In this document: positions 6,183 to 62,296 of the stretch, one piece after another | How the letters are laid out: the number at the start of each line of letters is the position of its first letter | Position numbering within the stretch: the stretch's first letter is position 1 | Source of the DNA: Geodermatophilus marinus | GTDB lineage: Bacteria; Actinomycetota; Actinomycetes; Mycobacteriales; Geodermatophilaceae | Direction of reading: 5' to 3' | NCBI RefSeq assembly: GCF_003428645.1 | Contig: NZ_QVQH01000001.1 | Span: forward strand, 372,001 to 436,000 | DNA: 64,000 bases | Notes under the pieces: generated by a model | Database searches by the model: none | Told to the model about the DNA's origin: nothing | What the model saw: the letters and a program-made list of their open reading frames with translations, nothing else | Program-made: the position numbers and the translations under genes

Positions 6183-6196
6183 CATGGCGGTCCTCC

Positions 6197-6419
6197 GGGC
6201 CGCACCGCGGCCACGTGCCGTCCCCGGCTCGCGCCGAGCCGCTCGGTCGTGCCCACCTCGGGGGACCCTGCGGGCCCCCGCTCGTCGGGCCGCACCGCGG
6301 CCACGTGCCGTCCCCGGCTCGCGCGGAGCCGCTCGGTCGTGCCCACCTCGGGGGACCCTGCGGGCCCCCGCTCGCCGGGCCGCACCGCGGCCACGTGCCG
6401 TCCCCGGCTCGCGCCGAGC
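6197..6419. repeat. 90-base tandem repeat, about 2.5 copies
   Basis: Copies start at 6197, 6287 and 6377; the last is cut at about 6419. Each begins GGGCCGCACCGCGGCC and includes a small hairpin GGGGGACCC-TGC-GGGCCCCC. Differences between copies are few, so the array is recent. Because 90 is a multiple of three, the repeat keeps several frames open on both strands, but I see no ribosome site or family match and treat those frames as non-coding. It occupies the gap after bldM. Apart from this array and the terminator at 6458, the 6183-6665 region shows only the promoter area of the next operon. Confidence 0.9.
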
Positions 6420-6457
6420 GGTGCCGCCAGGGCATCGATCCCCGCGGCGGGACGAGA

Positions 6458-6504
6458 ACACGGTGAGCGCCCCCTCCCGGCTCGGGAGGGGGCGCTCACC
6501 GTGT
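6458..6504. terminator. strong intrinsic hairpin
   Basis: A 22-base perfect stem (ACACGGTGAGCGCCCCCTCC and its complement) surrounds a 3-base loop. It lies about 275 bases after bldM and 160 before the tct operon, so it insulates the two. Confidence 0.85.
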
Positions 6505-16945: not shown

Positions 16946-17157
16946 GGACCCCGCTGCCCCCCACGCCTCGCAGGCTCGGCGCGGGCCCCTGCAGCGGGGC
17001 CGTTCCAGCAGGTCACCGGGCTCGGCGCGGGCCCCTGCAGGGGGGCCGTTCCAGCAGGTCACCGGGCTCGGCGCGGGCCCCTGCAGCGGGGCCGTTCCAG
17101 CAGGTCACCGGGCTCGGCGCGGGCCCCTGCAGCGGGGCCGTTCCAGCAGGTCACCGG
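16946..17157 (+). repeat. stop-proximal palindrome plus 46-base tandem array (copy after guaA)
   Basis: Outer arms GGACCCCGCTGC (16946-16957) and GCAGCGGGGCC (16991-17001) pair apart from a bulged A; the inner stem CCCaCGCC / GGCGcGGG flanks the loop TCGCAGGCTC. Three 46-base units follow (17002-17047, 17048-17093, 17094-17139), each made of spacer GTTCCAGCAGGTCACC plus a copy of the right half, with a partial fourth unit to 17157. The last partial unit supplies the stop codon of the opposing WYL gene. Its arm sequence differs from that of the groES copy but both arms change together. Confidence 0.92.
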
Positions 17158-44830: not shown

Positions 44831-44948
44831 GGCGCGGGCGCGTGTCGCCTTGTCTGCAACCCGTGTGACGAATGAGCCGGAAGAGCCGGGTGTGGCGCTC
44901 CGCGGGTCGTCCTGCTCCGGACGGCAGCCACCGGGGCTCAGGGGCGCC

Positions 44949-45001
44949 GCCCTCGTCCAGGGGTCCGCCACGAGCGGGCGAGGGGTGGGGGGACGAGGGC
45001 C
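44949..45001 (-). repeat. stop-proximal palindrome, minus-strand copy (after the lipase gene)
   Basis: On the minus strand, arms GGCCCTCGTCC (45001-44991) and GGACGAGGGC (44958-44949) enclose a CCaCC / GGcGG inner stem and a CTCGCCCGCTCG loop. It begins five bases after the stop of the minus-strand lipase gene, preceded by the AAAGG leader seen at other copies. It is thus in the same orientation relative to its gene as all plus-strand copies. Confidence 0.85.
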
Positions 45002-48400: not shown

Positions 48401-48453
48401 GGCCCCGTCCCCCTCATCCCTCGCAGGCTCGGGACGAGCCTCTGGACGGGGCC
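48401..48453 (+). repeat. stop-proximal palindrome between sucC and sucD
   Basis: Begins one base after the sucC stop. Arms GGCCCCGTCC (48401-48410) and GGACGGGGCC (48444-48453); inner stem CTCaTCCC / GGGAcGAG; loop CTCGCAGGCTCG. The inner arms differ from those of other copies at matching positions on both sides, which keeps the pairing. It lies inside the sucCD operon. Confidence 0.9.
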
Positions 48454-49532: not shown

Positions 49533-50753
49533 ATGACCAGCCAGCCCCCGCCCGCGGGCGGGTACGGAGGACCGGGGTGGGGGCAGGAGCCCCCGGGGGA
49601 GCCGCGCCACGGGCACCCCCCCTACGGCGGGCCGTCCCACGAGCAGCCCCCGTACGGGCAGCCGACCCACGGGCAGCCGCCCGGCTGGGGACAGCCGGGG
49701 GCGGGGCAGCAGCCCGGCCACGCCCAGCCGGCGTCCTGGGCCCAGCCGGGCCCGGGTCAGCAGGGGCCCTACGGCCAGCAGCCCGGCGGGCCGGCCCCGC
49801 ACGGGCAGGCGGGCGGAGCCCGGTACGGGGGGCGTCCGGGCGGCGGACCCGCGTTCGACGCCCGGAAGCTGAGGATGGCCGACCTCGTCGTCGCCGGCGG
49901 CACCCTGCTGTTCCTCGTCCTGGCGTTCTTCCCCTGGTACCGGTTCGAGGACGTCTTCTTCGGCGCGGACGTCAGCGTCTGGGGGTGGAGCTCCGGCCAG
50001 GTCACCACGGCGTTCTTCCTCTTCCTGCTCGCCTCGCTGTGGGCCGTGCTGCCGGCGTTCGTGCGCCTCGACCTCGGCTTCCCCCGGTCGTGGATCACCG
50101 TGGGCCTGGCCGGTCTCGGCTTCCTCATGGCCCTGCTGGCCTGGATCGACACCTTCAGCATCGGGCTGTCCTTCTCGTTGTGGGCGCTGCTCGGGTTCCT
50201 GACGGCGCTCGCCGTCCTGGCCTTCGCCGTGCTGGCGCTGCTGCCCGAGCTGACGGCGGGGCGCGCGCTGCCGGGCGGGCTGGCCGACGCCGCGCGGTGG
50301 GCCGACCAGCGGGCTCCGCAGTTCGGTCCCCCGGCCGGGCCGCGGGCCGACGACCAGCAGCCCCGGGAGCAGGCCCCCTACGGCCAGCAGCCGCCGTACG
50401 GCCAGCAGCCGCCGTACGGCCAGCAGCCGCCGTACGGCCAGCAGCCGCCGTACGGCCAGCAGCCGCCGTACGGCCAGGCCCCCTACGGCCAGCAGCCGCC
50501 CTACGGCCAGACCCCCTACGGCCAGACCCCCTACGGCCAGCAGCCGCCGTACGGCCACGCCCCCCAAGGTCAGCAGCCCGCCTACGGGCAGTTCCCCCCG
50601 CCGCCCGGCTGGCCCGCCGGCCCGGCGCCGCACGGGCAGCCCGGCGGTGCCACCCCGCGCGATCCGGGGACGGACCCGGGACCCGGGACCCCGTCCGGCG
50701 GGTCCACCGCCTCCGGGCAGGGGGCGGACCCCGAGCGGCCTTCCGGGACCTGA
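49533..50753 (+). CDS. PYGQ-repeat membrane protein (Rv0954-like)
   Basis: A 406-residue protein with a Gly/Pro/Gln-rich N-terminus (1-108), four hydrophobic helices (about 113-255) and a long C-terminal tail with repeats of PYGQQP. It resembles Rv0954 of M. tuberculosis (34 kDa antigen, DUF5336-like), also between sucD and purN, in topology and in its tyrosine-glutamine-rich tail rather than close sequence. Such tails in actinobacteria may take part in division or envelope assemblies. ATG 49533 follows GGAGGAG. Confidence 0.75.
50383..50560 (+). repeat. 18-base coding tandem repeat (PYGQQP)
   Basis: Units of CAGCAGCCGCCGTACGGC, at first identical in several adjacent copies and then with TAC/CCC variants, encode QQPPYG. 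Exact synonymous identity between neighbours indicates recent slippage expansion. Copy number is likely to vary between strains. Confidence 0.9.
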
Positions 50754-54258: not shown

Positions 54259-54570
54259 GGACCTCCTCGCCCCCCGCCACTCGCACGCTCGCGGCGGGTC
54301 CCTGCGAGGAGGCCGTTCCAGCACGTCACCTGCTCGGCGCGGGCCCCTGGAGGGTGGCCGTTCCAACTCGTCACCTGCTCGCGGCGGGTTCCTGCGAGGA
54401 GGCCGTTCCAGCACGTCACCTGCTCGGCGCGGGCCCCTGGAGGGTGGCCGTTCCGGCTCGTCACCTGCTCGCGGCGGGTTCCTGGAGGGTGGCCGTTCCA
54501 ACTCGTCACCTGCTCGCGGCGGGTCCCTGCGAGGACGCCGTTCCAGCACGTCGCCTGCTCGGCGCGGGGC
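54259..54570 (+). repeat. stop-proximal palindrome with 45-base alternating tandem array (copy after purH)
   Basis: Arms GGACCTCCTCGC (54259-54270) and GCGAGGAGGCC (54304-54314) pair fully apart from a bulged A, although their sequence differs strongly from other copies. Five 45-base units (54315, 54360, 54405, 54450, 54495) and a partial sixth follow. They comprise two right-half types: one ending CCTGGAGGGTGGCC, the other ending CCTGCGAGGAGGCC or similar, with spacers GTTCCAGCACGTCACC and GTTCCAACTCGTCACC. The array fills the 329-base gap and ends against the TACCCT box of the next gene. Confidence 0.92.
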
Positions 54571-58326: not shown

Positions 58327-58430
58327 GGACCCCGCTGCCCCCACCGTGGAAGGACCCCGTCCTCCTCACCCTTCGCAAGCCCGGGGTGGGACCCGGGACG
58401 GGGCCGGGGGCGGGACCCTGCAGCGGGGCC
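58327..58430 (+). repeat. nested stop-proximal palindromes between mdh and icd
   Basis: An outer copy with arms GGACCCCGCTGC (58327-58338) and GCAGCGGGGCC (58420-58430) contains a complete second copy in its loop, with arms GGACCCCGTCC (58352-58362) and GGACGGGGCC (58396-58405) and its own GGAAGG leader. The outer arms are of the guaA type, the inner arms of the corC type. The whole begins four bases after the mdh stop and ends 21 bases before the icd start. Confidence 0.9.
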
Positions 58431-62242: not shown

Positions 62243-62296
62243 GGACCCCGTCCTCCCCACCCCTCGCAGGCTCGGGGCGGGGCCCGGGACGGGGCC
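62243..62296 (+). repeat. stop-proximal palindrome after the CorC-type gene
   Basis: Arms GGACCCCGTCC (62243-62253) and GGACGGGGCC (62287-62296); inner stem CCCCaCCCC / GGGGcGGGG; loop CTCGCAGGCTCG. It begins five bases after the stop, with the GGAAGG leader. It lies in the convergent gap to galE and could end both transcripts. Confidence 0.9.

Follow-up and report, generated by a model that had tools for sequence, protein, structure and literature searches.

A family of short imperfect palindromes recurs through the genome of Geodermatophilus marinus (5.23 Mb in 71 contigs), and we put the probability at roughly 60% that it is a REP-like mobile hairpin family of the Geodermatophilaceae, a group of soil and rock bacteria, without a detectable Y1/RAYT transposase in 37 genomes. 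Such a family is not found in print in the literature that we searched. The analysis began from a stretch of 64,000 nt with a GC content of 75%, here called the window, and was extended to relatives, where an orthologous site can be occupied in one species and vacant in another, and at times holds an inverted or nested copy. A preliminary description of the window had reported seven palindromes after stop codons; it had missed the species-variable occupancy, the nesting, the restriction to one bacterial family among the genomes searched and a second class of sites at -10-like boxes.

The element is a 55-nt imperfect palindrome that reads, from its 5' end, roughly GAAGGACC, an arm of variable sequence, an internal loop, an inner stem interrupted by an A·C mismatch, the loop TCGCANGCTC, the matching arms and GGCC(G). 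In most copies, the 5' end consists of purines and AAGG, and the inner stem carries the A·C mismatch, which on the opposite strand would read G·U. The A after GG is present in 212/238 copies, and the loop has the form TCGC N(1-4) GCYC, also in 212/238. The ends, bulged A, mismatch and loop are common to the copies, as had been claimed for the last three features, and the letters of the arms vary yet remain complementary. The position counts given below derive from 284 aligned matches, 251 of which were anchored on GG and 246 of which have distinct flanks; the other 38 were left out.

The covariance model used for the searches has 55 positions and 17 pairs, and its seed consists of six window copies (the one after mdh is excluded) and seven others from the same genome. 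A scan of the window with this model gives seven hairpins, with E values of 3.9e-15 to 4.7e-10, and the next match has an E value of 1.7; Rfam at gathering score has no match in the window. The hairpins coincide with the palindromes reported earlier, with offsets of at most 1-2 nt, and the gene names used here (groES, guaA, lipase, sucC, purH, mdh and CorC) are those of that report. On the forward strand, copies follow the TAA stop of groES (1823-1877, 62.7 bits), the TAA stop of guaA (16946-17001, 76.4 bits), the TGA stop of purH with the spacer AGAA (54259-54314, 73.2 bits) and the TAG stop of the CorC gene (62243-62296, 66.1 bits); another lies in the sucC/sucD gap, immediately 3' of a TAA (48401-48453, 72.9 bits). 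On the minus strand, a copy follows the TGA stop of the lipase gene (44948-45001, 56.6 bits). The palindrome in the mdh/icd gap (58327-58430, forward strand) was correctly placed but is not a single copy: a second element on the same strand (58352-58406, 54.3 bits, outside the model's seed) sits in place of the loop of the outer one. Gene calls made independently with a codon-usage script agree that four of the copies separate co-directional genes.

Tandem arrays occur on the forward strand at 1863-1928 (period 25, 2.6 copies), with a unit made of the element's 3' end and a tail, at 16973-17157 (period 46, 4 copies), with a unit that extends from the hairpin loop through the 3' arm and a tail, and at 54287-54568 (period 45, 6.3 copies), where the unit begins in the hairpin loop, as in the guaA array. 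The window also contains a 90-nt direct repeat that is unrelated to the hairpin family (about 2.5 copies at 6195-6465, between gene calls, with 98% identity between the first two copies) and a tandem repeat with an 18-nt unit (about 11 copies at 50368-50591, within the gene call at 49533-50753).

The family is not limited to the window. A covariance search of the whole genome and of relatives, as the preliminary description had suggested, finds it genome-wide, with at least 162 matches at E <= 1 in the host genome; this is a lower bound because only 150 first-look candidates were scored. In 796 kb of the genome (the window, a further 392 kb of contig C1 and the whole of contig C23), there are 85 matches at 50 sites, which by proportion would give about 330 sites per genome, a rough estimate because the window, chosen for its copies, belongs to the 796 kb. 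At 327,585-328,857 of contig C1 (G000:C1; L055, 7593-8840), about 20 head-to-tail 60-nt copies form an array beside an opposite-strand gene. Among 61 genomes of the order, scanned with stricter filters and with at most 93 candidates scored per genome, the family is present in 34 of the 37 from its own family and in none of the 24 from other families. Copy number ranges from dozens to hundreds per genome across the Geodermatophilaceae; for example, all 150 candidates scored in genome G024 are matches. When these 150 best matches of G024 are placed in 500-kb bins, the bin at 4.0-4.5 Mb holds 30 and the one at 2.5-3.0 Mb, close to where the terminus is presumed to lie, holds only three. Named genomes scanned for an exact pattern gave at least 113 stretches, and we name the Geodermatophilaceae as the bearers because the 80 matches listed all come from Geodermatophilus, Blastococcus, Modestobacter, Goekera, Trujillonella or unnamed Geodermatophilaceae. 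Palindromes are common at high GC, and one could suppose that the copies are chance look-alikes in a 75% GC genome. However, with E values near 1e-9 and below, a constant loop and bulge, and no match in the 24 genomes of other families, this idea is already refuted and we give it practically no weight.

The presence or absence of the element at orthologous sites argues for mobility. After groES, for example, 21 of 30 relatives have a copy in the sense orientation, one (G026) has it inverted and eight are without it; after sucC, nine of 30 are filled in the sense orientation and two (G018 and G021) in the inverted one; and after mdh, eight of 30 have an element (all by eye). The constant orientation reported earlier thus holds inside the window and fails in the relatives, where more inverted copies occur elsewhere. 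At one site, the arm sequences vary from species to species. Between mdh and icd, the outer element stands alone in five relatives (G012, G013, G030, G035 and G036, by eye), as an un-nested orthologue of the nested pair in the host genome. A more general test for nesting, based on self-complementary flanks, gave 35/243 compared with 15 when the flanks of different copies were combined, a modest excess. In several pairs, the native sequence looks replaced rather than split; because the pairs compared were at the species level, only the nested cases indicate which way a site has changed. Several species also share further palindromes between genes, CCTGGCTCAC..GTGAGCCAGG-like or GTCGGGTGGGACGCGC-like and near GATCAGCTC-like stretches (gaps of G003, G006, G012 and G017), which are possibly another repeat family.

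The varying arms looked like covariation, and the preliminary description had taken this to mean that the folded RNA, or a cruciform, is under selection. The covariation itself is robust. In an alignment of relatives' loci (A5, 124 distinct rows; 150 of 164 matches, from 99 of the at least 113 exact-pattern loci), 96.2% of the cells are paired compared with 81.9% after shuffling, and the covariation score is 0.317 compared with 0.082; in this genome (A3, 67 rows), the figures are 91.5% and 74.8%, and 0.373 and 0.127. In both the 796 kb and the 99 relatives' loci, none of 500 shuffles reaches the observed pairing, two-sided cells or covariation score; the alignments are fitted to the model, which favours pairing, and slid versions drop to 42-58%. 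Changes on both sides of a pair number 242 in A5 and 153 in A3, compared with 10 and 19 changes on one side that preserve a standard pair, and unpaired cells number 79/2085 (A5) and 94/1106 (A3), many of them at register-shifting pairs.

The step from covariation to selection on the RNA is unsupported. Selection on a sense RNA should favour G·U over A·C, and the excess sought is absent. In the outer stems of 212 elements, paired by a procedure that scores both alike, there are 31 G·U and 27 A·C; the verdict was taken from these stems only, and the inner part of the same elements has 14 G·U and 276 A·C, which are for the most part the fixed mismatch and cells of the internal loop. Three model alignments, with one register-ambiguous pair excluded, have 18, 10 and 15 G·U compared with 19, 22 and 47 A·C. 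By comparison, tRNA stems (25 of 27 predictions used) have 17 G·U and 2 A·C, a weak control because some predictions look spurious and the filter favours G·U. Therefore, the pairing looks as if it is kept as DNA and not selected as sense RNA, and from these patterns of substitution it would be maintained either by copying from one arm to the other or by subfamilies that spread as ready-made arm pairs. The cruciform named as the other option may still play a part.

Most copies lie beside stop codons. Of the 246 copies, 171 begin within 9 nt 3' of a same-strand stop (one overlaps the stop by 1 nt), and only four were counted inside a called gene. The 171 stops comprise 127 TGA (97 with the element at +4), 30 TAG (21 at +2) and 14 TAA (seven at 0 and five at +2), so the register follows the identity of the stop, with TGA at +4, TAG at +2 and TAA at 0 or +2. 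Since TGA makes up 88.5% of the stops in the gene calls, TAG and TAA are over-represented at the elements. The set of 246 is mixed, with 145 copies from loci fetched by one exact pattern that favours one subfamily and the TGA+4 class (76/109). In the 796 kb, the stop-proximal position reported earlier holds for 28 of 55 distinct anchored copies (at most 9 nt past a same-strand stop) and does not hold for the other 27, array and nested copies included. Six of these 28 are TGA+4 and seven are TAG+2; the TGA+4 register is weaker there because most TGA+4 cases come from the pattern-fetched loci. The groES sites display a related pattern: all 21 sense-filled sites have TAG or TAA and seven of the eight empty sites have TGA, which suggests that the element, with its A-R start, sometimes completes the stop codon. 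The sucC sites are unlike this, with TGA in eight of nine sense-filled sites.

The stop itself appears to matter, and not only its three letters. Where the native gap is at least 60 nt, 23/324 real stops are occupied, compared with 1/151 of the same triplets in 3' regions (P = 0.001) and 5/828 elsewhere; the occupancy of real stops is thus roughly tenfold that of identical triplets in 3' regions. Targeting of TRA triplets alone does not account for this preference for working stops. A short relic of a classical insertion sequence (a MITE) that prefers TA or TRA targets and is filtered by selection would fit the fact that TA-bearing sites are the most occupied (12/42 TAG/TAA stops and 5/281 non-stop TAG/TAA, compared with 11/282 TGA stops and 1/698 non-stop TGA) and that the seven occupied triplets in other intergenic space are all TAG. 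However, triplets of the same sequence that are not stops are occupied far less often, and no target-site duplication and no terminal repeat beyond the hairpin were seen by eye in the species-level pairs, and so, we regard a MITE as improbable.

Mostly in the sense orientation and directly after stops, a strong GC-rich hairpin invites the view that these are lineage-specific transcription terminators or attenuators, with selection acting on the RNA hairpin at the end of the gene. Actinobacterial terminators can be without U-tracts, which is a point in favour of this view. The family resembles intrinsic terminators in placing a GC-rich hairpin after a stop and differs from them in being without a U-tract and in having the hairpin base usually only 0-5 nt from the stop. 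Only two of 238 copies have TTT in the 10 nt after the hairpin, and therefore, the hairpins are not classical terminators; the opposite strand is hardly better as a source of a U-tract, with AAA before 32/246 copies. Convergent gene ends show no excess (6/27 element sites compared with 208/738 genes), copies lie in the sucC-sucD and mdh-icd gaps, and, by eye, most of the relatives inspected have another hairpin downstream of groES and also one after groEL, whether the element is there or not. Together, the missing U-tract, the lack of preference for convergent ends and the other hairpins in the same gaps make U-tract termination unlikely as the main role, and the earlier opinion that simple termination is insufficient is upheld by the 236 of 238 hairpins without TTT and by the counts at convergent ends. 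With the lack of a G·U excess and the variable presence among species added, selection as a terminator or attenuator is rather unlikely. After groEL, a plain hairpin, GAGAGGGCCGGTCCAGC...GCTGGACCGGCCCTCTC, is found in several species (L341-L360), with or without the element, and resembles an ordinary U-poor terminator.

A somewhat better case, although still an unlikely one, can be made for a hairpin selected at stops for translation-linked control, through ribosome hindrance or mRNA stabilisation, with mobility incidental. PMC12306157 reports that E. coli REPs within 15 nt of a stop stall ribosomes and that REPs stabilise mRNA, and by analogy a hairpin that starts 0-5 nt past the stop could have the same effects. 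The preference for real stops over the same triplets would be expected, as would the recurrence of certain genes: among ten genomes, groES is occupied in nine, purH in six, guaA in five and sucC in four, and four of 29 genes are occupied in at least four genomes compared with about 0.5 if occupancy were independent, in a window chosen for having copies. However, vertical inheritance also yields recurrence, and the register varies with the identity of the stop, which the geometry of the ribosome does not demand. Occupancy of the window genes is also patchy across the ten genomes, from 8/32 in G015 to 0/35 in G009, and G001 has four occupied genes where G009 has none at 35, though the flanks are similar.

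The second and rarer class of sites is made up of 17 copies placed ahead of an opposite-strand gene, 15-38 nt from its start; they are partly dependent, with one locus represented in three species and one in two. In 15 of the 17, ANNNTA, the reverse of a TANNNT -10 box, lies 2-9 nt before the stem, compared with 87/752 genes in a like window; the control set may include genes that bear an element, and the stretch examined in it was set at a single offset. The purine-rich end faces the gene at both the stop sites and the -10-like sites.

Returning to a REP-like mobile family, the obvious mobiliser would be a RAYT, and this candidate was rejected: the Y1 transposase domain (Y1_Tnp, PF01797) is absent from all 37 family genomes (the host and 36 others), with the search control positive in five of 14 genomes. 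A composite transposon finds no support either. Ten genes picked from those between neighbouring copies include no transposase; nine belong to ordinary Pfam families (an aldehyde dehydrogenase, two PQQ-repeat and two 6PGDH-like proteins, a cation efflux protein, FtsZ, AdoHcyase and a CoA-ligase family member) and one has no family. A transposon that moves as single-stranded DNA on the lagging strand might show a replication-strand bias; none was seen, with 81/150 elements (the 150 best matches) compared with 155/292 genes and the terminus assumed opposite dnaA.

The literature offers several relatives in kind. A BOX-PCR paper (PMC2625358) reportedly names the Geodermatophilaceae. We found no paper that ties repetitive extragenic palindromes to Geodermatophilus, and in the passages found of the G. 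obscurus genome paper, palindromes are unmentioned and no such repeat is described. By the broad definition of REPs, the element is extragenic, palindromic and present in many similar copies per genome, and at 55 model positions it is longer than the usual length of about 14-40 nt. The GTAG REPs that accompany RAYTs share with it the high copy number, the intergenic imperfect hairpin, an unpaired end before the stem and the position near ORF 3' ends (PMC3733652, PMC2817692); the former says that they 'often provide' the TAG stop. However, those REPs measure 20-40 nt and have a constant GTAG tag. Here, the nearest T-R-R triplet within 10 nt before the stem is TGA in 134 of the 246 copies, TAG in 44, TAA in 21 and none in 47, and because TAG is nearest in 44 only, GTAG is possible in at most 44/246. 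Since the tests for the tag and for a RAYT both failed, we do not file the family among the GTAG REPs. The CGTC-tagged REPs, mostly alphaproteobacterial, 'apparently lack a dedicated transposase' according to PMC3733652, and none was found here either, but our elements have no unpaired CGTC tag and the 5' flank is purine-rich. The word Actinobacteria is absent from the main text of PMC3733652, and Geodermatophilus and Blastococcus are unnamed in the main texts of both REP surveys (PMC3733652, PMC12306157). The RepRanger table in the latter gives REP counts for three Actinomycetota, none of them Geodermatophilaceae, and its text does not name Modestobacter; its REPs are likewise palindromes close to stops, under a broad definition of a palindrome rather than as one family of related copies.

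Two other systems share part of the design. The integron attC sites have arms that vary but stay paired, with recognition carried by bulges and loop, and they differ from the element in size and ends. The MIRU of mycobacteria are actinobacterial, inserted at stop codons, oriented with the gene and prone to tandem arrays, all features in common with the Geodermatophilaceae element, but they are located where a stop and a start codon overlap and are not known to form such hairpins. Among the 21 same-direction element sites in the 796 kb, none has a gap of 10 nt or less after subtracting 60 nt, as a MIRU-like overlap site would.

From these comparisons and patterns, we infer how the element might move and how it might act on terminating ribosomes. 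The mobile form would be single-stranded DNA folded into a hairpin, and recognition would rest on its ends, bulge, mismatch and loop, so that the arms may drift as long as both drift together, for example when one is copied from the other. Breakage at the loop would give the nested insertions and the tandem arrays whose units start in the loop. Copies would persist where they are least harmful or somewhat useful, that is, beside stop codons, and in the mRNA the hairpin would act as stop-proximal E. coli REPs reportedly do, by hindering ribosomes at the stop and blocking 3' exonucleases, and not as a U-tract terminator. A bolder and quite tentative proposal is that a mobile DNA hairpin tells a working stop from the same triplet elsewhere, with insertion or survival coupled to translation termination, and that it is spread by an enzyme other than Y1/RAYT that reads the folded strand by its ends, bulge, mismatch and loop and leaves the arms free.

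In conclusion, what looks like textbook covariation can apparently arise without a selected RNA; if so, a strand check of G·U against A·C would be needed when RNAs are sought by covariance in GC-rich genomes. The family adds to the Actinomycetota a well-defined set of REP-like elements with no known mobiliser and with a target register tied to the stop codon. With it, the old question of how REPs come to select the ends of genes can be put to the test, through species pairs in which a site is filled in one and empty in the other and through a complete genome that carries at least 150 copies.
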